Assembly (NCBI GenBank): GCA_021733795.1
Contig: JAIPKB010000021.1
Location: 1-45,618, forward strand
Origin: Akkermansiaceae bacterium
Lineage (GTDB): Bacteria; Verrucomicrobiota; Verrucomicrobiia; Verrucomicrobiales; Akkermansiaceae
Reading direction: 5' to 3'
DNA length: 45,618 bases
Below the pieces are notes generated by a model that saw nothing but the letters and a program-made list of their open reading frames with translations, did not search any database and was not told the DNA's origin. Shown here piece after piece: positions 19,783-31,678 of the stretch. The translations under genes and the position numbers were made by a program. Each line of letters opens with the position of its first letter. Position 1 is the first letter of the stretch.

Positions 19783-20556
19783 TTAGATCGCTGGTTCGCG
19801 TTTTTTCTTACCGCGGCTGGAGAGGACCTGGTCGCGGGTGCGGAGCTTGGAAAGCGCCTTGAGGGTGGCCTTGACCACGTTGGCGTGGTTGGAGGAGCCC
19901 ATCGACTTGGCGAGGACGTCGCGGATGCCGACCGCCTCGCAGACGGCGCGGACACCGCCTCCGGCGATGATCCCGGTACCCGGCGAGGCCGGCTTGAGGA
20001 GCACCTTGCCACCCCCAAATTCGGCGTAGATTTCATGGGGGATGGTGCCACCGACGATGCTCATTGGCTTGAGCACCTTCTTGGCACCCTCGCTGGCCTT
20101 GCGGATGGCCTCGGCCACTTCGTTGGCCTTGCCGAATCCGAGACCGACGCGACCGAGCTTGTTGCCAGAGACGACCAGGGCGGAGAAACTGAAACGACGC
20201 CCCCCCTTGACCACCTTGGCGCAGCGGTTGATGAAGACCACTTTCTCCGAGAGTTCATTGCCTTCCGAATCGGTGGCGACAGGACGTTCCTCACGGCGCG
20301 GACCACGACCACCACGGCCGCCTCCGGGACCGCCCGGGCCGCCCGGACCGCCACGACCACCGCGCCCACGGAAATCACCGCGGGAGTCGGCTGGAGGCGC
20401 GGAGCCCTCCACGGGGCCGAGAGGAGCGGGCTTGGGAGCATCGGTAGCGGCGGCCGGCGCCTCTGCGGCGGGCGCTTCCGCGGCGGGCGCAACGCCGGCG
20501 ACAGGGGCGGGTTTTGGTTCGTTATCGGGCAATGGAGTTTCGGGAGTGGTAACCAT
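19783..20556 (-). CDS. rpsE: Small-subunit ribosomal protein uS5 with long RGG-rich N-terminal extension
   Basis: The S5 core (about 101-257) opens [20 protein letters not shown] and carries [20 protein letters not shown] and [14 protein letters not shown]5 helps form the mRNA entry site and controls decoding accuracy. Before the core lie about 100 extra residues: a Pro/Ala tract (1-55) and then a Gly/Arg block [15 protein letters not shown] with [13 protein letters not shown] (62-90), an RGG-box-like RNA-binding pattern. Usual S5 is about 165 residues; this is 257. The ATG at 20556 gives one continuous frame, 14 bp after rplR. The extension could bind RNA or be removed; its function is unknown. 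Confidence 0.95.
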
Positions 20557-20570
20557 AATCGGGGAGGGCG

Positions 20571-20927
20571 TTAGAATTTGAGTCCGCCCGCACGAGCGGC
20601 GTCGGCGAGAGCTTTGACTTTTCCATGGTAGAGGTGGCCACCGCGGTCGAAGACCACGGCACTGATGTTGGCGGCGAGGGCGCGCTCGGCGAGGAGTTTA
20701 CCGACGTTGGTGGCCGAGGTGACGTTGGAGGATGCGTTCTCCATGGCCGACTCCTGAGTGGAGGCGGAACAGAGGGTGCGGCCTTGGGCGTCGTCGATGA
20801 CCTGGGCGTAGATGTGCTGATTGGAGTAGTGGACGGCGAGCCGCGGACGGGCGGCGGTGCCCGCGACCTTGCGGCGGATGCGGGAGTGGACGCGTTTGCG
20901 GATTTCCTTGCGATTGATGATACTCAT
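20571..20927 (-). CDS. rplR: Large-subunit ribosomal protein uL18
   Basis: A 118-residue protein that binds 5S rRNA and carries it into the central protuberance together with uL5. The basic N-terminus [19 protein letters not shown] and the core [20 protein letters not shown] are typical, and the end [20 protein letters not shown] is the conserved C-terminal signature. Length equals that of the E. coli protein. It lies between rplF and rpsE in the normal spc order. Only a faint CAGG upstream of the ATG could serve as a ribosome binding site. Confidence 0.97.
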
Positions 20928-20968
20928 GGAACCTGGTGGTAAGTGGGGTGGCTGAGGGAAAGTGGGGG

Positions 20969-21508
20969 TTATTTACCGACGCTCTTGCCTTCCTTGCGGC
21001 GGACGTGTTCGCCGACGTAGCGGACACCCTTGCCCTTGTAGGGTTCGGGCGGGTAGAAAGCGCGGACTTCCGCGGCGAACTGGCCGACGAGTTGTTTATC
21101 GATGCCTTCCACCTTGATTTTGGTATTGTCCGCGACCGTCACGGTGAGTCCGGCGGGGATCGGGTGAAGGAGCGGATGGGACTTGCCGAGGGAAAGGTCA
21201 AGATCGGAACCCTTGACGGCGGCACGGAGACCGACACCCTGGATTTCGAGATTCTTGGTGAAGCCTTCGGAGACCCCGAGGATCATGTTCTGGACCAGGC
21301 TGCGGGCGGTGCCGTGAAGGGCACGCTGCTGGCGCAGTTCGGTGACCCGGGAAACGACGACGGTACCGTCTTCCGAGCTGAGGTTGATACCGTCCGGCAA
21401 GTTGAAGTCGAGTTTGCCCTTGGGGCCTTCGACAACGACCGTGCGCCCGTCCAGTTTGACGGCGACTTTATCCGGGAGAGAGATTGGTTTGAGACCGACT
21501 CGTGACAT
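20969..21508 (-). CDS. rplF: Large-subunit ribosomal protein uL6
   Basis: A 179-residue two-domain protein near the sarcin-ricin loop and the factor-binding site. I place the start at 21508 ([20 protein letters not shown]); the frame is open further upstream, but those residues (MANSSPSSGKPP...) do not fit the family. Conserved parts are [14 protein letters not shown] and the C-terminal [20 protein letters not shown], the L6 signature with the usual EG-KGKG pattern. A purine string AAAGGA lies about 13 nt before the ATG, which is weak. It follows rpsH and precedes rplR. Confidence 0.97.
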
Positions 21509-21539
21509 GGTGGTGTGTTTTCCTTTGCGAGTTGGGGGT

Positions 21540-21941
21540 TTACCAGACGATGGCGAGGAGTTCGCCACCGAGTTTCTGACGTTTGGCGGCAGCGCCCGAC
21601 ATGACCCCTTTGGAAGTGGAAAGGATGGAGATGCCGAGGCCGGACATGACCGGCGCGATCTTGGTGGAGCCGACGTATTTGCGGCGACCCGGTTTGGAGG
21701 CTCGCTTGAGGTCGGTGAGGACCGGGCGGCCTTCGATGAATTTCGGTTTGACCTTGAGCTTGACGCCCTTGCCCTCGGTGGTGACGACCTCGTAATTCCA
21801 GAGGTAGCCCTCTTCCTGAAGGACGCGGGCGATGTCCGCCTTGATTTTGGAATAGGGAGCGAAGAAGGCTTCGTTACCGGCGATGCAAGCGTTCTTGAAT
21901 CGGGTGAGGAAGTCGGAGACTGGATCAGTTAAAACGGCCAT
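21540..21941 (-). CDS. rpsH: Small-subunit ribosomal protein uS8
   Basis: A 133-residue primary 16S-binding protein that organises the central domain and, in E. coli, represses the spc operon. The start MAVLTDPVSDFLTRFKNAC is typical, and the end SILSTSKGVMSGAAAKRQKL matches the conserved STS-GVMT-A signature. It follows rplE by only 36 bp, so rpsN (uS14), which usually lies between them, is not here. A weak AGGAA stands about 11 nt upstream of the ATG. Whether S8 autoregulates this cluster cannot be told by eye. Confidence 0.97.
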   Translation of the reverse strand: MAVLTDPVSDFLTRFKNACIAGNEAFFAPYSKIKADIARVLQEEGYLWNYEVVTTEGKGVKLKVKPKFIEGRPVLTDLKRASKPGRRKYVGSTKIAPVMSGLGISILSTSKGVMSGAAAKRQKLGGELLAIVW

Positions 21942-21977
21942 GGTGGATGGTTCCTGGGGTTGGCGGGTGGTTGAGTG

Positions 21978-22580
21978 TTAGACGGTGGCTGCGGCTGGTT
22001 CTTCAGCTTCCTTGCCGGGGGCGTTGGCCTTCTTCATGTCGCGGAACGGCATGCCGAGTTCGGCCAGGAGCGCACGGCCCTCGGCGTCGGTGGCGGCACT
22101 GGTGACGAAGATCAGGTCGAAGCCGATATGGCGTTTGATCTGGTCAATCTCGATTTCCGGGAAGATCGTCTGGTCCTGGATGCCGCAGGCGTTATTGCCG
22201 CGGCCGTCGAAGGACTTGGGGGAGATCCCGCGGAAGTCGCGGATGTTGGGTGCGGTGACATTGATGAAACGATAGAAGAACTCCCACATGCGGGGACCGC
22301 GCAAGGTGACGCGGGCACCGAGCGGCTCGCCATCGCGGAGCTTGAAGTTGGCGACGGATTTCTTGGAGAACGAGATCGACGGGCGCTGGCCGGTGATCTT
22401 GGTGATCTCCGCCACGGCGTCATCGACGGCGAGTTTGCGGTCCGGGGCATTGCCCATGCAGGAGGTGACGACGATTTTCTCGAGGCTCGGGACCTGATGG
22501 GGGTTGGTGTAACCGAACTTCTCTTTGAGGTTCGGCACGACCTTGTCTTTGTAGTGCTGTTGCAGTGGCGGTGTGTTCAT
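21978..22580 (-). CDS. rplE: Large-subunit ribosomal protein uL5
   Basis: A 200-residue 5S rRNA-binding protein. The core is standard: LQQHYKDKVVPNLKEKFGYT, KLRDGEPLGARVTLRGPRMW, FFYRFINVTAPNIRDFRGIS and DQIKRHIGFDLIFVTSA. Compared with the 179 residues of E. coli L5, it has a C-terminal tail rich in Ala, Glu and Lys (KKANAPGKEAEEPAAATV). Similar low-complexity tails occur on rplV and, at the N-terminus, on rpsE in this cluster. It follows rplX by 66 bp. No Shine-Dalgarno site is seen. Confidence 0.97.
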   Translation of the reverse strand: MNTPPLQQHYKDKVVPNLKEKFGYTNPHQVPSLEKIVVTSCMGNAPDRKLAVDDAVAEITKITGQRPSISFSKKSVANFKLRDGEPLGARVTLRGPRMWEFFYRFINVTAPNIRDFRGISPKSFDGRGNNACGIQDQTIFPEIEIDQIKRHIGFDLIFVTSAATDAEGRALLAELGMPFRDMKKANAPGKEAEEPAAATV

Positions 22581-22646
22581 GGTTTCAGCGGGTCAGCGCG
22601 ATTGGTGGTTGCTTGGGGCGCTTAAGCGCGGGCGGAGGGGGTGGCC

Positions 22647-22880
22647 TCAGCCCAGTTTCTTGACGTTGGAGATGTGGACGGGACCATCGATGTTGATGAT
22701 GCCGCCATCGGGGTGTTTTTCCGATCGTTTGACGGCTTTTTTGAGTGGGCGGACGCCATCGACGATGACCTGGCCCTTGACGGCATTGATGGAGGTGACT
22801 TGGCCGGTTTTGCCTTTGTGGTTACCGGCGATGACCTGGACTTGGTCGCCTTTGTTGACGTGAGTCTTGATGCGGCTCAT
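22647..22880 (-). CDS. rplX: Large-subunit ribosomal protein uL24, short form
   Basis: A 77-residue KOW-domain protein that starts assembly of the large subunit. The sequence runs [31 protein letters not shown], then [18 protein letters not shown] and ends [11 protein letters not shown]. coli L24 has about 104 residues; here the C-terminal zinc-knuckle-like or basic end is missing, and the stop follows directly after the fold. There is no sign of a frameshift downstream, so this looks like a naturally short form. The leader is C/A-rich, without a Shine-Dalgarno site. Confidence 0.95.
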
Positions 22881-22912
22881 GGTGCGGTGGGGTGGGAAAG
22901 GGGTTGGTGGGA

Positions 22913-23278
22913 TCAGAGGACCTCGGGGGCGAGGGAGACGATTTTCATGAAGCCGCGCTCGCGGAGTTCGCGGGCGACGGGGCCGAAGATACGGGTGCCG
23001 CGGGGGTTGTTATCCTTGTCAATGAGAACCATGGCATTGGAGTCGAAGCGGAGGATGGAACCATCGGGACGGCGGATGGGATAGGAAGTGCGGACGATCA
23101 CTCCCTTGACCACTGAGCCCTTTTTGACGGAGGCGGTGGGGATGGAGTCGGTGATATGGGCGGTGATGATATCACCGATCCCGGCGGTGCGGGTCGCCTT
23201 GCCGATCACACCGATCATTTTAGCGGCGCGGGCGCCGGTATTGTCGGCGACGGCCATTGAGGATTCCATTTGAAGCAT
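22913..23278 (-). CDS. rplN: Large-subunit ribosomal protein uL14
   Basis: A 121-residue protein at the subunit interface, near the binding site of silencing factor RsfS. It begins [20 protein letters not shown] and holds [20 protein letters not shown] and the end [13 protein letters not shown], all typical. The gene is preceded by four 7-bp repeats (23290-23317), which end 11 bp from the ATG; no Shine-Dalgarno site lies between. It precedes rplX by 32 bp. Nothing else is unusual. Confidence 0.97.
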
Positions 23279-23289
23279 AGCGGTAGGTA

Positions 23290-23317
23290 TTTGAGATTTG
23301 AAATTTGAGATTTGAAA
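23290..23317. repeat. Four 7-bp repeats in the leader of rplN
   Basis: The units are TTTGAGA, TTTGAAA, TTTGAGA and TTTGAAA on the plus strand, placed between rpsQ and rplN inside the ribosomal cluster. On the coding (minus) strand they read TTTCAAA/TCTCAAA and end 11 bp before the rplN ATG. They belong to the same family as the arrays at 3099-3203 and 29117-29158. Confidence 0.9.
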
Positions 23318-23332
23318 TCCGGCGGAGCCGGC

Positions 23333-23599
23333 TCAGTGGGAGAGGATCTCTTGCACCGCCCAGCGCTTCATTTTGGAAAGCGGGCGGGTTTCGACGATGC
23401 GGACGCGGTCGCCGATCTTGGCCTGGCCGTCTTCGTCGTGGACGTAGTATTTCTTGGACCGTTTGACGATCTTGTTGAAGCGGGGATGGGGGACGCGGGC
23501 GATGTGCTCAACGACGATGGTTTTGTCCATCTTGTCGGAGATGACGGTGCCGACGCGGGTCTTGCGGCTGGAGGTGGTTTCCTGGGGAGTCTCGCTCAT
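23333..23599 (-). CDS. rpsQ: Small-subunit ribosomal protein uS17
   Basis: An 88-residue OB-fold protein that binds 16S rRNA early in assembly. The pattern RVGTVISDKMDKTIVVEHIA, VKRSKKYYVHDEDGQAKIGD and RVRIVETRPLSKMKRW is the standard S17 sequence. The first ten residues (MSETPQETTS) are a short acidic extension. It lies 33 bp after rpmC. The leader CCAACCGCCTAACCATTT before the ATG has no Shine-Dalgarno match. Confidence 0.97.
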   Translation of the reverse strand: MSETPQETTSSRKTRVGTVISDKMDKTIVVEHIARVPHPRFNKIVKRSKKYYVHDEDGQAKIGDRVRIVETRPLSKMKRWAVQEILSH

Positions 23600-23632
23600 G
23601 GTGGGAAATGGTTAGGCGGTTGGGCTGCTGGA

Positions 23633-23833
23633 TCAGGCGCGTTTGCGGGCTGACGCGGCAGTGAGAGTCCGGGCGATCTGGCGGCGGACGATGCGGATGC
23701 GGGCGGAGTTTTCCAACTGGCCGGTGGCTTGTTGGAGGCGGAGGTGGAGGGCCTCCTGCTTGAGTTCGCGAAGTTGGGCGGCGAGTTCGTCGACGCTGGC
23801 CTCGCGGAGGTTCGTTTCTTTGGTCTTGGCCAT
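23633..23833 (-). CDS. rpmC: Large-subunit ribosomal protein uL29
   Basis: A 66-residue helical hairpin protein next to the polypeptide exit tunnel, near the docking site of signal recognition particle and trigger factor. The sequence has [20 protein letters not shown] and [20 protein letters not shown], then [16 protein letters not shown], all in place. It stands between rplP and rpsQ as usual. The leader is a C/A-rich repeat (CCACGCCCACCACGCCCACC) without a Shine-Dalgarno site. Confidence 0.96.
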
Positions 23834-23880
23834 GGTGGTGGGCGTGGTGGGCGTGGTATGAGGTTCGGCAGGCGTAGGGA

Positions 23881-24300
23881 TCAGGCGTGAGGATCGCGGG
23901 CGACCAGGCGGGTGCGGATGCCGAGTTTGTAGGAGGCGAGACGCATGGCCTCACGGGCCTGGGTTTCCGAGACACCCGCGACCTCGAACAGGATGTTTCC
24001 GGGGCGGATCACGGCGACCCAGCCTTCGACCGCGCCCTTACCCTTGCCCATCCGGGTTTCCGGAGGGCGGGAAGTGATCGGCTTGTGGGGAAAAATCCGG
24101 ATCCAGACTTTGCCCTTGCGTTTCATCGAGCGGTTGATCGCGATCCGGCAAGCCTCGATCTGGCGATTGGACATCCAGCCGCGGTCGAGGGTTTGCAGGC
24201 CGTAGTCACCGAAGGCGACAGTGGTCCCGCGCTGGGCGTTCCCGGCGCGGCTTCCGCGGTGGCTTTTGCGGAACTTGGTTCGTTTGGGCATCAAGGGCAT
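23881..24300 (-). CDS. rplP: Large-subunit ribosomal protein uL16
   Basis: A 139-residue protein near the peptidyl-transferase centre that supports A-site tRNA accommodation. Typical parts are [60 protein letters not shown] and [10 protein letters not shown]. Two Met codons lie close together (24300 and 24291). The first is preferred because a full AGGAGG stands 8 nt upstream of it. That makes rplP one of the very few genes in the cluster with a strong Shine-Dalgarno site. Confidence 0.97.
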
Positions 24301-24362
24301 GGCTCGGTCCTCCTAGGTAGATATGGGGTGGTGTTGAAAAATGATGTGTGAACGGGATGGTC

Positions 24363-25064
24363 TTAACTGCGGGCCGGGCGGCGGTCCGGGCGGTCACCGC
24401 GCGGCGGGCGGTCACCACGGCCGGAGGACGGCTTGGCATCCTCTTCCTTTTTGTTGATCCAGCACTTGACGCCGATGACGCCGTAAAGGGTGCGGGCTTC
24501 GGCAAAGCCGTATTCGAGAGGGACGCGGAGCGTCTGGAGAGGCACCTTGCCTTCGCGGTAGGATTCGGCGCGGGCGATATCGGTGCCGCCGAGGCGCCCG
24601 GAGACGCGGAGGCGGACACCGTCGGCACCGAACTCCATGGCGGTCTGGATGGCACGTTTCATGGCACGGCGGAAGGCGATGCGGCGTTCGAGTTGGATGG
24701 CGACCTGCTCGGCGATGAGCTGGGCGTCGAGTTCCGGTTTGCGGATCTCGAGGATATCGAGTTTGACCTGGGCGCCCTGGCAGAGTTTCGAGATATCATG
24801 GGTCATGATCTCGATTTCCTTTCCCTGGCGGCCGATAATAAGGCCCGGGCGGGAAGTGTGGAGGGTGACGCGGACGCTGTTCCAGGCGCGCTCGATGACC
24901 ACCTTTGCCAGGCCGGCGTTCTGCAGTTTGTTACGCAGGTATGAGCGGATGGAGAGGTCTTCGTGAAGCTTGATGGTGAAGTCCTTGCCGGCGGCGTACC
25001 ATTTGGAACGCCAGTCCTTGGAGACTGCGAGACGGAAGGCGATTGGATTGACTTTCTGGCCCAT
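24363..25064 (-). CDS. rpsC: Small-subunit ribosomal protein uS3
   Basis: A 233-residue protein of the 30S head, part of the mRNA entry helicase site. It starts MGQKVNPIAFRLAVSKDWRS and contains the KH-domain segment RPGLIIGRQGKEIEIMTHD and the C-terminal domain GVRLRVSGRLGGTDIARAES. The last 25 residues (SSGRGDRPPRGDRPDRRP) form an Arg/Asp/Pro-rich tail, another charged low-complexity end in this cluster. It follows rplV by 36 bp. The leader CCCACCCCTCATCCATT lacks a Shine-Dalgarno site. Confidence 0.97.
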   Translation of the reverse strand: MGQKVNPIAFRLAVSKDWRSKWYAAGKDFTIKLHEDLSIRSYLRNKLQNAGLAKVVIERAWNSVRVTLHTSRPGLIIGRQGKEIEIMTHDISKLCQGAQVKLDILEIRKPELDAQLIAEQVAIQLERRIAFRRAMKRAIQTAMEFGADGVRLRVSGRLGGTDIARAESYREGKVPLQTLRVPLEYGFAEARTLYGVIGVKCWINKKEEDAKPSSGRGDRPPRGDRPDRRPARS

Positions 25065-25100
25065 AATGGATGAGGGGTGGGATTTAAAAAGGAGACGGGG

Positions 25101-25535
25101 TTAGGCTTGTTCTTCAGTGGCGGTGACTTCCTCTGCTGCGGGAGCGGCGGGCTCGGTCTTCTTGTGGACGATCTTGGAAACGGGACGCTTTTTCTTTTCC
25201 GGGGCGGAACCGACCAACGTGATGTAGATGTGGCTGGTGCGCTTGAGAATGGGGCTGGCGGAACCCTTGGCCCGTGGAGTGTGGCGGCGCAGCGTGGGGC
25301 CCGCGCCGATCGTTGCTTCCTTGATGATCAGGGTGTTGGTATCAAGCGAGTAGTTGTTCTCCGCATCGGCGATGGCGGTTTTGAGAGTTTTGCCAATCAG
25401 GGTGGCTGCCTTCTTCGGGGTGAAGTTGAGAATATCCAGAGCGGAGGAAACGGGGAGTCCCTGAATCTCGCGGGCGACGTCACGCGCTTTTTGAGGCGAG
25501 AGACGAACGTATTTGGTGGTGCTTTTGACTTCCAT
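25101..25535 (-). CDS. rplV: Large-subunit ribosomal protein uL22 with C-terminal tail
   Basis: A 144-residue protein whose beta-hairpin lines the exit tunnel; changes in it affect macrolide sensitivity. The core has KYVRLSPQKARDVAREIQGL, AADAENN-like IADAENNYSLD, and the hairpin GPTLRRHTPRAKGSASPILK. The core ends near HIYITLVGS, then about 30 residues rich in Lys, Pro, Ala and Glu follow (KKTEPAAPAAEEVTATEEQA), absent from the 110-residue E. coli protein. Upstream, in place of rpsS, stands an unrelated exported protein gene, 38 bp away. Confidence 0.96.
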   Translation of the reverse strand: MEVKSTTKYVRLSPQKARDVAREIQGLPVSSALDILNFTPKKAATLIGKTLKTAIADAENNYSLDTNTLIIKEATIGAGPTLRRHTPRAKGSASPILKRTSHIYITLVGSAPEKKKRPVSKIVHKKTEPAAPAAEEVTATEEQA

Positions 25536-25573
25536 GGTCGGCTGGCGGTGAGGGGTGGTGGTTGGAGATGGGG

Positions 25574-26287
25574 CTATTCGGTTTTGAGAACGGCGAGATC
25601 GCCGGTGCGTGGGGATTCCACAGAGGGGTCTGAGTGTTCGATGAAGGCTCCGCTGACGGCCTTGCGGACATCGGCGAGAATGGCTTTCCCGTAGTGTTGC
25701 TGAGCGCGGAACAGGTCGAAGGTCATGCCGATTTTGGCATTCTGGTTTTCACCCACATTGAGGACGATCAGACCGCTTTCCTGGTCGATGCTGACGATCC
25801 GGGCTTGCTGAAGCGAGCCGGTTCGGACATCGGGACGGGGTTTGTGCTTGAATCCGAGGACCGAGTCAAGCTCACGCAGCGAGGTTTCCAAGCGGAGTCG
25901 CGAATCGGGATCGGAAACCACCGCCTGGCGCAGGTAATCCAGGATGGAGGAGATGACCCGGGTGGAGGCGGCTTCGAGTTCAGCGTTGCGTTCCCGAGCC
26001 AGTTCGAGGTCGGCCGCGGCCTGAATGAGTCGGTCATTGCCCCCATCGAGGAGGTTTTTGCCGAGCGCTTCGAGGCTGAGGCGGACCTGGGCGAGTTGCT
26101 CGGTGGCGTCTTTCTCGGCGCGGTTGGCCTGGAGCAGGCTGCGTTGGAGGCTGACGTTTTGCGCCCGGAGGTCGGCGATGAGGTCCTGCATTTCCTCCGC
26201 TGTGGGTTCGGCCGCCTGGGCCAAACCGACCGTTGCCAGCAGCCCGAGGGCGGCGGCGATGGTGCGGAAGTGACGGCGGGAACTCAT
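25574..26287 (-). CDS. Exported coiled-coil protein inserted in the S10 cluster, unknown function
   Basis: A 237-residue protein that I do not recognise. Residues 1-25 form a Sec signal peptide (SSRRHFRTIAAALGLLAT, then GLAQAAEP with an AQA cleavage site). Residues 30-140 are a predicted coiled coil rich in Leu, Ala, Glu and Arg (EEMQDLIADLRAQNVSLQRS onward). Residues 160-237 form a small beta-rich end (ARIVSIDQESGLIVLNVGEN, AKIGMTFDLFRAQQHYGKAI, SPRTGDLAVLK), like the SH3/FlgT-like C-terminal domains of other envelope proteins. The gene lies between rpsS (23 bp upstream) and rplV (38 bp downstream) on the same strand, so it is probably co-transcribed with ribosomal genes. Base composition is like that of its neighbours, so recent foreign origin is not evident. 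Confidence 0.75.
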   Translation of the reverse strand: MSSRRHFRTIAAALGLLATVGLAQAAEPTAEEMQDLIADLRAQNVSLQRSLLQANRAEKDATEQLAQVRLSLEALGKNLLDGGNDRLIQAAADLELARERNAELEAASTRVISSILDYLRQAVVSDPDSRLRLETSLRELDSVLGFKHKPRPDVRTGSLQQARIVSIDQESGLIVLNVGENQNAKIGMTFDLFRAQQHYGKAILADVRKAVSGAFIEHSDPSVESPRTGDLAVLKTE

Positions 26288-26310
26288 GATGAAGGAGGGG
26301 TGGGCAGGGG

Positions 26311-26583
26311 TTACTTTTTGCCGATGCCGCCGTGCTGGCGGAAGATGCGGGTAGGGGCGAACTCACCGAGTTTGTGGCCCACCATGTTCTCGGTGACATA
26401 GACCGGAACGAAGGTTTTACCATTGTGGACGGCGAAGTTATGGGAGACGAAGTCCGGAGTAATCATGGAGCTGCGGCTCCAGGTTTTGATGGGCTTGCGA
26501 TCAGAACCGGTGGCGGCCACGGCATCGATCTTGGCGAGAAGCTTCTGATCGACGAACGGGCCTTTCTTGAGGGAGCGGGGCAT
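26311..26583 (-). CDS. rpsS: Small-subunit ribosomal protein uS19
   Basis: A 90-residue protein of the 30S head that contacts uS13 and the A-site finger. The sequence [20 protein letters not shown], then [20 protein letters not shown] and [29 protein letters not shown] is the full S19 signature. It follows rplB by 45 bp. Normally rplV comes next, but here the exported coiled-coil gene intervenes. No Shine-Dalgarno site is visible. Confidence 0.97.
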
Positions 26584-26628
26584 GGTGTGCGGGGCGTTGA
26601 AGTGCGGATGGTGGGGCGTAAGAGGCGG

Positions 26629-27468
26629 TTAGTGCTTCTTGTGGCGGGATTGAACGATAAATACAGAGGTGGTCTTGTTGCGCTTGCGGGTTTTCTGGCC
26701 CTTGGCGTGCCCCCATGGACTGAGGAGATGCTGGCGACCACCACCGGATTTCGATTTGCCTTCACCACCGCCGTTGGGGTGGTCCACCGGGTTCATGGTC
26801 ATGCCGCGGACGGTGGGACGGACGCCCATCCAACGGGTGCGGCCAGCCTTGCCGGAGACCTCGTTCATGTGGTCGCGGTTGCCGACCTGGCCGATGGTGC
26901 AGAAGCAGGCTTCGTGGAAGCGGCGGATCTCACCGGATGGCATTTTGACCAGCGCCCAGCCACCGTCGCGGTTGGAAAGGACGGCTTGCTGACCGGCGGA
27001 CCGGGCGACCTTGCCGCCGTTGCCAGGAAGCAGTTCGATGTTGTGAATGGCGGTGCCGAGTGGCACTGCGCTGAGCGGCATGGCATTGCCGGTCTTGGGA
27101 GCGACCTTGTCACCGGAGACCACCGTGGCACCAACTTCCAGCCCGACCGGGGCAAGGATGTAGGATTTCTGACCGTCCTCGTATTGGATGAGGGCGATGC
27201 GGCAGGTGCGGTTGGGATCGTATTCGATGGCAGTCACCGTGGCAGGCATGTCACGCTTCTTGCGCTTGAAGTCGATGATCCGGTAGTGGCGCTTGTGGCC
27301 ACCGCCGATATGACGGCAGGTGATGCGGCCGGTGTTGTTGCGGCCACCGGAGCGCTTGAGCGGAACGATGAGGCTTTTCTCCGGCTTGCTCTTGCTGATC
27401 TCCTCGAACGAGGGATGTGCCTTGTAGCGTGCGGATGGGGTGATCGGGTTGTAAGTTTTGAGGGGCAT
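26629..27468 (-). CDS. rplB: Large-subunit ribosomal protein uL2
   Basis: A 279-residue, highly conserved protein needed for subunit joining and peptidyl transfer. The start is put at 27468 ([20 protein letters not shown]); upstream residues in the same frame do not fit the family. Signatures are [47 protein letters not shown] and [17 protein letters not shown], with the last holding the conserved functional His region near HPNGGGEG. Length is six residues over E. coli L2. It lies between rplW and rpsS. Confidence 0.97.
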
Positions 27469-27515
27469 GACTCGCGGAACGGTGAAGGTTGCGTTTGGAG
27501 TGGTAGGCGGGAGGA

Positions 27516-27800
27516 TCAGACGAGGTCGAGAGACTCTCCTTCCGCCAGACGGACGATGGCTTTTTTCCAACTGGCGGTGCGCCCGGCATCGGCCCGGCGG
27601 CGGCGGCGAAGCTTGCCGGAACAGTTGGCAGTGCGAACGGCAACGACTTTCTTGTCAAACAAGCTTTCGACGGCGCGCTTGATGTCAAGTTTGTTGGCCT
27701 TGCGGTCAACTTCGAGAACGATCTCGTTGTTGGTTTCCTGGAGCAGGGTAGCCTTTTCGCTGAGGCGGACGTTTCTAACGACCTGGTAAATGTCTTTCAT
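27516..27800 (-). CDS. rplW: Large-subunit ribosomal protein uL23
   Basis: A 94-residue protein at the tunnel exit, the main docking point for trigger factor and SRP. It reads [40 protein letters not shown] and [20 protein letters not shown], then [18 protein letters not shown]. The central loop is short but within family range. It follows rplD by 23 bp and precedes rplB by 47 bp. The leader has no Shine-Dalgarno site close to the ATG. Confidence 0.96.
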
Positions 27801-27823
27801 GGTCTGTGGGAGTGATCCTGGGG

Positions 27824-28432
27824 TCAGGCGGTGCGATTGGCCAAAGTGGTGAGGGCGTCACCCACGAGGATGACTGACTTGGCGAGAAGGAGTTGTTCGA
27901 TGTTGACATCGGAGGCGGTGACCAACTGGACCCAACTGACGTTGCGGCCGGCGAGGTAGGTGGTTTCGTCAAAAGTGTCGCTGACAATGAGAATCTTGGC
28001 GGGAGGGGTCATGGCGCTCACGGTTGCGATGAATGACTTGGTCTTGCCATCGGCAACGGAGAACGAATCGACGGTAAGGATCTTACCGGCGCTGGTCAGG
28101 TCACCCAACACGCGGCGGAGAGCCAGGCGGCGGGTGGTCTTGTTGACTTTTTTGGAGTAGTCGCGGGGGCGGGGGCCGAAGACCACACCACCACCGACGA
28201 AGATCGGGGCGCGCTTGTCGCCGTGACGGGCGTTGCCGGTCCCTTTCTGGCGATAGATTTTCTTGTTATTCCCGGAAACCTCGCCGCGGGTCTTGGTGCT
28301 GGCGGAACCGGTGCGGCGGTTGGCACGGTAGGCGGTGACGAGGTCGTGGACGGCTTGACGGCCCTTTTCGGCACCGACCAAAACGATATTGGCGGCTTGG
28401 GCGTCTTCAGCAGTGAAGGTCTTTGCGGACAT
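27824..28432 (-). CDS. rplD: Large-subunit ribosomal protein uL4
   Basis: A 202-residue protein with an extended loop in the exit tunnel. The loop is visible as TKTRGEVSGNNKKIYRQKGT followed by GNARHGDKRAPIFVGGGVVF; the globular part has RRLALRRVLGDLTSAGKILT. In E. coli L4 also represses the S10 operon by binding its leader; here no separate S10 leader is evident, since rpsJ follows fusA directly. The first residues (MSAKTFTAEDAQAANIVLVG) are typical of the fold's start. Confidence 0.96.
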   Translation of the reverse strand: MSAKTFTAEDAQAANIVLVGAEKGRQAVHDLVTAYRANRRTGSASTKTRGEVSGNNKKIYRQKGTGNARHGDKRAPIFVGGGVVFGPRPRDYSKKVNKTTRRLALRRVLGDLTSAGKILTVDSFSVADGKTKSFIATVSAMTPPAKILIVSDTFDETTYLAGRNVSWVQLVTASDVNIEQLLLAKSVILVGDALTTLANRTA

Positions 28433-28472
28433 GTCAGTATGGCGTGTGATGGTTCAGTGTGACCGGATGAGG

Positions 28473-29108
28473 TCAGGCGGTCTTTTTCTTGGCCGCGCGG
28501 ATGGTGAGGTAGCTGCCTTTGGCTCCGGCGACCGGGCCGGAGACGAGGATGACCCCATCCTCCGGGCGGATGGCAACGATCTTGAGATTCTGTACGGTGC
28601 GGCGGGCGCCGCCCATGCGGCCGGGCATTTTCTGGTTTTTCCAAACCCGGCCGGGAGTGGAGCTACAACCGATGGAACCGGTCCGGCGATGCATCATCGA
28701 ACCGTGGGTCTGGCGGAGACCGCCGAAGCCGTGGCGTTTGTAGGCGCCTTGGAATCCGCGACCGATGGTGGTGCCGATGACATCGACCCATTGGCCGGTG
28801 GTGAAGAGTTCCATGCCGGGATGGGCGGTGGGAGGAGTGGTGCCGTCAACGAGCCGGAACTCCTTGACGAAGCGCTTGGGCGCGGACCCGGCTTTCTTGA
28901 AGCGACCGAGATCCGGCTTGTTGACGCGTTGTTCCTTTTGATCGTCGAAACCGACTTGCACGGCTGTGTAGCCATCGGATTCCGGAGTTTTCACCTGAAG
29001 AATGGTGTTTCCGGAGACATCGATGACGGTGACGGGGATCATGCTGCCGGCCTGTTGATCGAACAGGCGGGTCATGCCGAGCTTTTTACCTAGGAGACCG
29101 AGGGACAT
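28473..29108 (-). CDS. rplC: Large-subunit ribosomal protein uL3
   Basis: A 211-residue protein that reaches the peptidyl-transferase centre and starts 50S assembly. The start is set at 29108 (MSLGLLGKKLGMTRLFDQQA); the frame upstream is only translated 7-bp repeat. Signatures are GTTIGRGFQGAYKRHGFGGL, RQTHGSMMHRRTGSIGCSST and GRVWKNQKMPGRMGGARRTV. Six heptamer repeats (29117-29158) end 8 bp from the ATG, and there is no Shine-Dalgarno site. It follows rpsJ by 70 bp. Confidence 0.97.
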   Translation of the reverse strand: MSLGLLGKKLGMTRLFDQQAGSMIPVTVIDVSGNTILQVKTPESDGYTAVQVGFDDQKEQRVNKPDLGRFKKAGSAPKRFVKEFRLVDGTTPPTAHPGMELFTTGQWVDVIGTTIGRGFQGAYKRHGFGGLRQTHGSMMHRRTGSIGCSSTPGRVWKNQKMPGRMGGARRTVQNLKIVAIRPEDGVILVSGPVAGAKGSYLTIRAAKKKTA

Positions 29109-29116
29109 GGCGAGTG

Positions 29117-29178: not shown

Positions 29179-29487
29179 TCAGATCCGGATGGTGATGTCA
29201 ACGCCGGCGGGGAGGTTGAGCTTTTTCAGTTCATCGACGGTGCGGGCGGTCGGGTCCACGATGTCGAGGAGCCGCTTGTGGGTGCGGATCTCGAACTGTT
29301 CGGCTGACTTTTTGTTGACGTGGACGGAGCGGTTGACGCTGAACTTCTCGATGCGGGTGGGCAGCGGAATCGGTCCGGCGACGCGGGCTCCGGTGCGTTT
29401 GGCGGTCTCCACGATTTCCTTGGCCGAGCGGTCGATGGCGCGGTGGTCGTAAGCACGCAGACGGATGCGAATTTTCTGGTTTTCCAT
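29179..29487 (-). CDS. rpsJ: Small-subunit ribosomal protein uS10 (NusE)
   Basis: A 102-residue protein of the 30S head that also serves in transcription antitermination with NusB. It has [60 protein letters not shown] and [10 protein letters not shown], all conserved. It follows fusA by 46 bp, and tuf, often between them, is missing. Thus the str and S10 parts run on without a clear break. Confidence 0.97.
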
Positions 29488-29533
29488 GGCGTTGGGTAGG
29501 TTGGCGGTTGAGCGTGACGGTGGGGTTGATCGG

Positions 29534-31678
29534 TTAGTAGCCGGGGAAGTCGCCGACGATGGACTCGACGACGCTTTTGGGGACTTGTTCGAAATGGGAG
29601 GGGGTCATGGCGTGGGAGGCACGGCCAGAGGAAAGGGTGCGGACATCGGTGGAATATCCAAACATCTCCTTGAGCGGGACATTGGCGTGGACGATGGCGA
29701 AGCTGCCTTTGGACTCGGTGTGCTGGATCTGGCCGCGGCGGCGACTCAGGTCGCCCATCACGTCCCCCTGGAAATCATCCGGGGTGGAAACCTCAACGGC
29801 CATGATCGGCTCCAGCAGTATGGGGCCGGCTTTGGCGAAGCCATCCTTCACGGCGAAATAGGCGGCCATTGAGAAGGCCCCTTCGTTGGAGTCCACCTCG
29901 TGGGAGGAACCGCCGGTGATGTCCACGTGGACATCGACCACCGGATAGCTGGCAATGATGCCATTGGTGAGTGCTTGGGAGACGCCCTTGAAGACGGCTG
30001 GCATGAACTCCTTGGGAATGGAACCGCCGATGGTCTTGTCCTCGACCGAATGGCCTTCGCCCTTGCCGTTGGGGCGGACGTTGAGGATCACATGACCATA
30101 TTGGCCGCGACCACCGGTTTGGCGGATCAGCTTGCCTTCGCCTTGGGCCGCCTTGGTGATGGTTTCGCGGTAGGCGATCTGGGGAGTGCCGACGTTGACG
30201 CCGACCTTGAACTCGTTGCGGATGCGGTCGACGATGATCTCCAGGTGGAGTTCGCCCATGCCGGAGATGATGGTCTGGGCGGTTTCCTCATCGGTCTTGA
30301 CCGTGAAGGTAGGATCCTCCTCGCTCAAGCGGGTGAGCACGGTGGCGAGTTTGTCCTGGTCGGCCTTGGTTTTGGGCTCGACGGCCATGGAGATGACCGG
30401 CACCGGGAAGGTCGGGGGCTCGAGCACCACTTCGTGACCGGGCACGGTGAGGGTGTCGCCAGTGGCCACGTTTTTCAAGCCGACCATCGCTGCGATGTCG
30501 CCGGCGTAACAGGCATCGACGTCCTTGTGGGAGTCTGCCTGGACCTGGATGAGGCGACCGATGCGCTCGGAGCGGCGGGTGCGCGGGTTGTAGACAGTGT
30601 CTCCCTTTTTGATAACCCCTGAGTAAACGCGGAAGAAAACGAGCTTGCCGACGTATTTGTCGGCCCAGAGTTTGAAGGCGAGCGCGGTGAACTTGCCGTG
30701 GTCGGTGGTTGGCACGCTGATCGAGATCCCCTCATTTTCCGGGTCCATGCCGACGGTATCGGCGATGTCGAGCGGGCTGGGAAGGTAATCGACCACGGCG
30801 TCCAGCAGGTATTGGACGCCCTTGTTTTTGAAAGCGGAGCCACCGGCCACGGGCACCAGTTGGTTGGCAATGGTGGCGCGGCGCAAGGCCTGTTTGAGTT
30901 CCAACCGGGAGATTGGCTGCTCGTGGATGAATTGCTCGCCGAGTTCATCGTCCACATCGGCCACCGTGTGGATCAAATCATCGTAGGCCTGGCGACCGAT
31001 CTCGACGAGATCGCCCTCGAGGTTGCAGACGGTGTAGGTCGATCCGAATTGGTCGTCGCTGGAGAAATAGACGGCCTTTTGGTTGACGACGTCGAGCTGG
31101 CCGATCAACTGGTCTTCCGCCCCGATCGGGATGAGGACCGCGGCCGGAATGGCTCCGAGTTTCTCACGGATTTCATCGACGACGGCCTGGAAGTTGGCAC
31201 CGGTGCGGTCCATCTTGTTGACGAAGACGATCCGCGGGACGTGGTATTTGGTGGCTTGGCGCCAAACGGTTTCGGTTTGCGGCTGGACGCCGGCGACCGC
31301 ACAGAACACCACGATGGCACCGTCGAGCACCCGGAGCGAACGCTCGACCTCGGCGGTGAAATCGACATGCCCGGGAGTGTCGATGATGTTGATCCGGATT
31401 TTCTGCTCCGGAAAAAGTTTATCAGTTCCGTCTTCGGGCCGCTGGCACCATTCGGTGGTGACGGCGGCGGAGGTGATGGTGATCCCGCGCTCGCGCTCCT
31501 GCTCCATCCAGTCGGTGGTGGTGGCACCGTCGTGAACCTCGCCGATCTTGTGGATCAGGCCGGTGTAAAACAAGGTCCGTTCCGTGAGGGTCGTCTTCCC
31601 CGCATCGATGTGCGCCGCAATCCCGATATTCCGGGTGCGTTCAAGCACATACTGGCGGTTTGGACTGTTGGGATTCAC
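29534..31678 (-). CDS. fusA: Translation elongation factor G
   Basis: A 714-residue GTPase that drives ribosomal translocation. The G motifs are present: [15 protein letters not shown] (P-loop), the switch I region [40 protein letters not shown] and [11 protein letters not shown]. Domains II to V follow, with [40 protein letters not shown] and the end [20 protein letters not shown]. The start codon is GTG at 31678 ([19 protein letters not shown]). It lies between rpsG and rpsJ. A single EF-G gene is seen here; a second copy elsewhere cannot be excluded. Confidence 0.98.

Follow-up and report, generated by a model that had tools for sequence, protein, structure and literature searches.

A conserved, apparently unnamed gene between rpsS and rplV in Verrucomicrobiota encodes a predicted exported protein with a FlgT-type barrel fold

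An apparently unnamed gene, here called X, lies between two ribosomal protein genes in the S10 operon of an Akkermansiaceae bacterium, in a window (the whole stretch of DNA analysed) of 45,618 nucleotides. The location, age and architecture of X are well supported, and its function we infer as follows: in the reading that we favour, to which we assign a probability of roughly 0.55, X is a housekeeping periplasmic scaffold or adaptor of the Verrucomicrobiota that is made together with ribosomal proteins. X would be transcribed with rpsS and rplV and thereby made in proportion to growth; it would be exported by Sec, its helical stalk would provide spacing or oligomerisation, and its small C-terminal barrel would be the part that binds, docking X to some other assembly in the periplasm in the way a FlgT-type domain does in a flagellar ring. 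X also bears on the balance between envelope and ribosome production. As a single-copy gene of vertical descent it can serve as a marker, and it offers a definite envelope protein to work on in culturable Verrucomicrobiota.

Few gene pairs in bacteria are as reliably adjacent as rpsS and rplV. In the window, X (25574–26287, minus strand), an open reading frame (ORF) of 237 amino acids with an ATG start, is embedded between the upstream rpsS (S19; 26311–26583, minus strand) and the downstream rplV (L22; 25101–25535, minus strand), with 23 nt from the end of rpsS to X and 38 nt from X to the start of rplV; length, strand and gaps had all been given correctly in the first-pass annotation. No terminator-like or promoter-like sites were found in either gap flanking X, and because the gaps are short and free of terminators, co-transcription of X with rpsS and rplV is likely, judging from the sequence. 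The CAI of X (0.574) falls at the low edge of the range covered by the ribosomal genes of the operon (0.55–0.82) and above that of many other ORFs in the window, which fits high expression without proving it. The base composition of X (GC 0.63, GC3 0.75) matches that of its operon neighbours (GC 0.55–0.67, GC3 0.70–0.86), in agreement with the similarity noted earlier. Between close pairs the dN/dS of X is 0.03–0.27, and purifying selection acts on the gene; conservation, dN/dS and gene order together rule out that X is mere ORF noise. A Shine–Dalgarno-like motif is missing within 20 nt upstream of most gene starts of the S10/spc region (positions 20556–29111 of the window), X included, a few of the starts being mis-set, and at positions 29179–31678 rpsJ directly follows fusA.

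Within the family, X is present as a single copy in 94 of 97 genomes and in all 80 that are near-complete, and the order rplB-rpsS-X-rplV-rpsC was seen, as far as contigs reach, in 78 of the 79 loci read; the sole exception (L068), from a family member of 82% completeness, is a contig stretch that holds an X homologue but no ribosomal genes. Among the named relatives are MAGs labelled Prosthecobacter, Luteolibacter and Akkermansiaceae. A search with a single sequence recovered X from 160 of 286 genomes of the class, and homologues occupy the same spot in about 30 of its families. The rpsS–rplV gap holds an ORF with the X barrel motif in 38 of 40 loci fetched from distant families, and the two others are a locus that starts inside the operon (L123) and a probable paralogue (L128). 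This comparison of gene order across verrucomicrobial genomes places X at a position that is conserved across the class. In several genera of the family (L042, L043, L050, L051, L057, L058, L063, L073) rplV carries a fused C-terminal domain of ~75 amino acids with the motif DDLKxISGVGPxLExKLxxFGxYxYxQI...FDxLLSFKGRIERDxW, which we take to be a helix-hairpin-helix type sequence of a kind known from other ribosomal proteins.

For the phylum, a sample of 144 genomes was searched with an X profile, the location of each match relative to S19 and L22 was read, and the counts were made by hand. Outside the class, rpsS-X-rplV occurs in 15 sampled genomes (G348, G353, G371, G377, G383, G389, G391, G395, G405, G409, G415, G419, G424, G428, G438). 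In 28 sampled genomes X is the gene immediately upstream of rplV, and rpsS lies at another site or on a different contig (G346, G349, G351, G352, G354, G358, G364, G370, G372, G374, G378, G380, G388, G392, G398, G400, G402, G420, G421, G425, G426, G427, G429, G431, G433, G435, G437, G440). Different contigs in draft genomes are by themselves no proof that the S10 operon is split, and the split is beyond doubt where the genome is one contig or where both parts share a contig, as in G349, G400, G421, G426 and G435, among others. Loci read from the rpsS side (L133, L135, L136, L139, L140, L184) have other genes after rpsS, and X is found directly upstream of the rplV region in L185, L187, L189–L191, L193, L196 and L198–L200. 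When the operon breaks, X usually stays attached to rplV. In several of the phylum's families, rpsS is the last gene of the S10 operon, and the portion with rplV lies at another genomic site. The remaining sampled genomes either have rpsS and rplV adjacent (e.g. f61, f63, f67, f68, f8 and most of f13) or are unresolved. X is missing from the locus in f8, most of f13, f61, f63, f67, f68 and the 0.9-Mb genomes of f15, and its absence from several lineages means that it is not universally essential. The reduced 0.9-Mb f15 genomes (G112, G120) are without X yet have kept a secretin and MreC; X is retained in a congeneric genome of 2.5 Mb (L113).

The divergence of X tracks that of ribosomal proteins (Mantel r 0.862, 122 loci, 0/999 permutations), and the conclusion that X is ancient and vertically inherited is strongly supported. 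The same holds for the long residence in the operon that had been proposed from base composition, given the position of X across class and phylum and its co-divergence, while a recent insertion unique to this strain is excluded by the phylum-wide distribution. The simplest history is an ancestral insertion followed by losses and by operon breaks between rpsS and X; horizontal spread is less likely because of the co-divergence with ribosomal proteins. Literature searches turned up no description of a gene between rpsS and rplV in Verrucomicrobia, and nothing on X was found in the essentiality and proteome literature on Akkermansia. CT421.2 is a named PVC signature protein (PMC3444138).

The retention of X between rpsS and rplV across the class, and beside rplV after breaks, suggests that the gene probably matters to cells. 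It is tentatively conceivable, at odds clearly short of even, that throughout the phylum this ancestral S10-operon gene encodes an unnamed core envelope protein that would build or anchor some structure in the periplasm and whose dose would follow ribosome synthesis; this would amount to a phylum-specific envelope system hidden within an operon that is among the best known in bacteria. Slightly less probable is that X is useful while its position is meaningless, persisting since breaking a ribosomal operon is costly. The ribosomal operon cluster does resist change, being a prominent exception to the fast turnover of bacterial gene order (PMC8046335), but after breaks X usually remains beside rplV (the 28 sampled genomes), and lineages in which rpsS and rplV are adjacent without X indicate that removal is possible. 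The first-pass annotation had proposed instead that X, or its position, couples envelope growth to ribosome synthesis. The gene has long kept its place in an operon that, in the bacteria where it has been studied, is under growth control, and the X–rplV linkage outlives the operon in many lineages; however, no regulatory element or sensor domain was found for X, co-expression, itself inferred, would alone account for the position, the rpsS–X linkage is dispensable, and several lineages grow without X. We consider such coupling improbable.

From sequence inspection and hydropathy, residues 1–25 of X (26213–26287, minus strand) form a predicted signal peptide of ordinary type, in which a basic n-region and a hydrophobic core lead to an AxA-type site (AQA/AE); the N-terminus reads MSSRRHFRTIAAALGLLATVGLAQA up to this site and AEP beyond it. 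The AlphaFold2 (AF2) model has a helix at residues 7–16, within the signal peptide region. A comparable hydrophobic N-terminal segment occurs in 133 of 138 X homologues and is retained in short forms of the protein, so that the signal peptide claimed at first pass finds support in the n-region, the core, the AxA site and the homologues alike. A convincing lipobox is present in one homologue (L181), and forms from outside the class include some that seem to be anchored in the membrane (L150, L156); together with the signal peptides, these point to the periplasm. The predicted export signal argues against X being a cytoplasmic, ribosome-bound ribosomal protein. An export- or envelope-side gene within a ribosomal-protein operon is familiar from secY, which lies inside the spc operon; SecY, however, is the universal translocon, whereas X, predicted to be exported, is known here from this phylum alone.

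The remainder of X is predicted to consist of a helical stalk, probably a coiled coil (residues 30–144; 25856–26200, minus strand), and a C-terminal six-stranded beta-barrel with the fold of the FlgT C-terminal domain (residues 160–237; 25577–25810, minus strand). The AF2 model, built with 91 homologues, has helices at residues 30–77, 84–120 and 127–144 and strands between 161 and 234; its mean pLDDT is 86.5, with 90–97 in the barrel, and at a pTM of 0.47 the placement of the helices relative to the barrel is unreliable. Of the two domains described earlier, the small beta-rich C-terminal one is borne out by the high-confidence barrel, while the 'long coiled coil' stands as far as long helices are predicted, but the 3.5-residue periodicity of helix 30–77 is not significant against shuffled sequences (48 of 300 reach it). 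Conserved barrel residues are G179, G187, R194, R208 and G229-D230. These near-invariant positions, that is, glycines, a Gly-Asp turn and two arginines, look structural and suggest binding rather than catalysis, so that X is most likely a structural scaffold or adaptor and not an enzyme.

X is distinct from FlgT, TsaP and MreC and has no match above cut-off in Pfam and none in NCBIfam; sequence searches of solved structures yielded mostly coiled-coil noise, and of the families that recur among X homologues, FlgT_C aside, most are coiled-coil matches. In structure comparison the best matches of the barrel are two FlgT entries, at Z 11.9 (rmsd 1.9, 74 aligned) and Z 11.1 (rmsd 1.7, 75 aligned), and Foldseek gives the fold E values of 2.7e-4 and 3.5e-4. 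It is important to point out that the barrels of F1/V1-ATPase subunits share this fold and follow close behind FlgT at Z ~10; the fold alone therefore does not demonstrate a ring or adaptor role. FlgT, a component of the Vibrio flagellar H-ring whose C-terminal domain is PF16538, resembles X in its barrel and in being an exported periplasmic protein. X differs in that it is without the N-terminal and middle domains (only residues 153–237 align, the rest being signal peptide and helices), scores below the family cut-off and lies outside any flagellar locus.

The barrel could also mark X as an accessory akin to TsaP or FlgT that stabilises an outer-membrane secretin or similar ring of a type IV pilus or type II secretion system, a role that we regard as unlikely, though more plausible than envelope–ribosome coupling. 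Beyond the FlgT fold itself, weak FlgT_C sequence matches occur in 12 of 91 X members (best E 6.2e-5), but none of the members scanned reaches the curated cut-off (23.8 bits against 27 for the best homologue), X itself has no FlgT_C match, and none was found in 20 related genomes. TsaP, the type IV pilus secretin-associated protein, is likewise exported and was matched weakly in the barrel region by a PDB profile search (E 0.019); X, unlike TsaP, has a helical stalk, is encoded in the S10 operon and contains no LysM domain, for which Pfam searches gave no match at E up to 10 in X and up to 0.05 in 10 homologues. In the phylum sample, a secretin is present in every genome that has X at the locus, and the sole secretin-less family, f8 (4/4), is also without X there. 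Since secretins are present in 140 of 144 genomes, however, this link rests on one family, and a secretin without X is found in the majority of f13 and in the f15 genomes of reduced size. PilN as a marker for a type IV pilus link was uninformative, as its Pfam model finds matches in only 51 of the 144 genomes and misses many that have a secretin.

MreC, of the rod-elongation machinery, shares with X the plan of membrane signal, helix and beta domain, and a profile search gave a weak match of X to solved MreC (E 0.0036), raising the idea that X is an MreC-like partner of this machinery. Pfam MreC (PF04085) finds no match in X, however, and a true MreC is encoded separately, on another contig of the genome. 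With verrucomicrobial MreC (a small alignment that leaves out the MreC of the same genome), hhalign gave a probability of 40% for a stretch within the barrel. At E 1e-5 no MreC was found in 15 near-complete genomes of genus g3 (G002, G028, G038, G063 and 11 others), whose relatives have it; all 15 retain X in place, which excludes MreC as an obligate partner of X. Conversely, MreC occurs where X is missing from the locus, namely in f8, in the majority of f13 and in the f15 genomes of reduced size. With a separate MreC in the genome and presence patterns that do not match, X as MreC or its partner is largely refuted, and we rate this the least probable of the roles considered.

Short versions of X (111–130 amino acids), found in families f9, f34, f42 and f45 and in parts of f13 and f39, consist of signal peptide and barrel and have no stalk. 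They align by hhalign with a probability of 98.7 (E 1.7e-16), and the predicted fold of a 130-residue homologue has the same six strands in the same order. These forms suggest that the protein works through its barrel and can do without the stalk. X is single-copy in its own genome at the sequence level, and a profile search adds three more distant relatives. A paralogue family 'Y' in the same genomes (for example L232:4227-5941, L233:4319-5910, L235:4604-5347 and L237:3999-4745, or to 4748) matches X by hhalign at a probability of 99.4 (E 1.3e-21) and shares the barrel, along with a membrane segment and a helical stalk; in contrast to X, the N-terminal membrane segment looks uncleaved, the genomic neighbours are different and the genes are sometimes in tandem. 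Such stalk-plus-barrel paralogues elsewhere in the genome could share or replace the role of X. In genus g3 a tandem 'Y' pair is sometimes found near dnaX.
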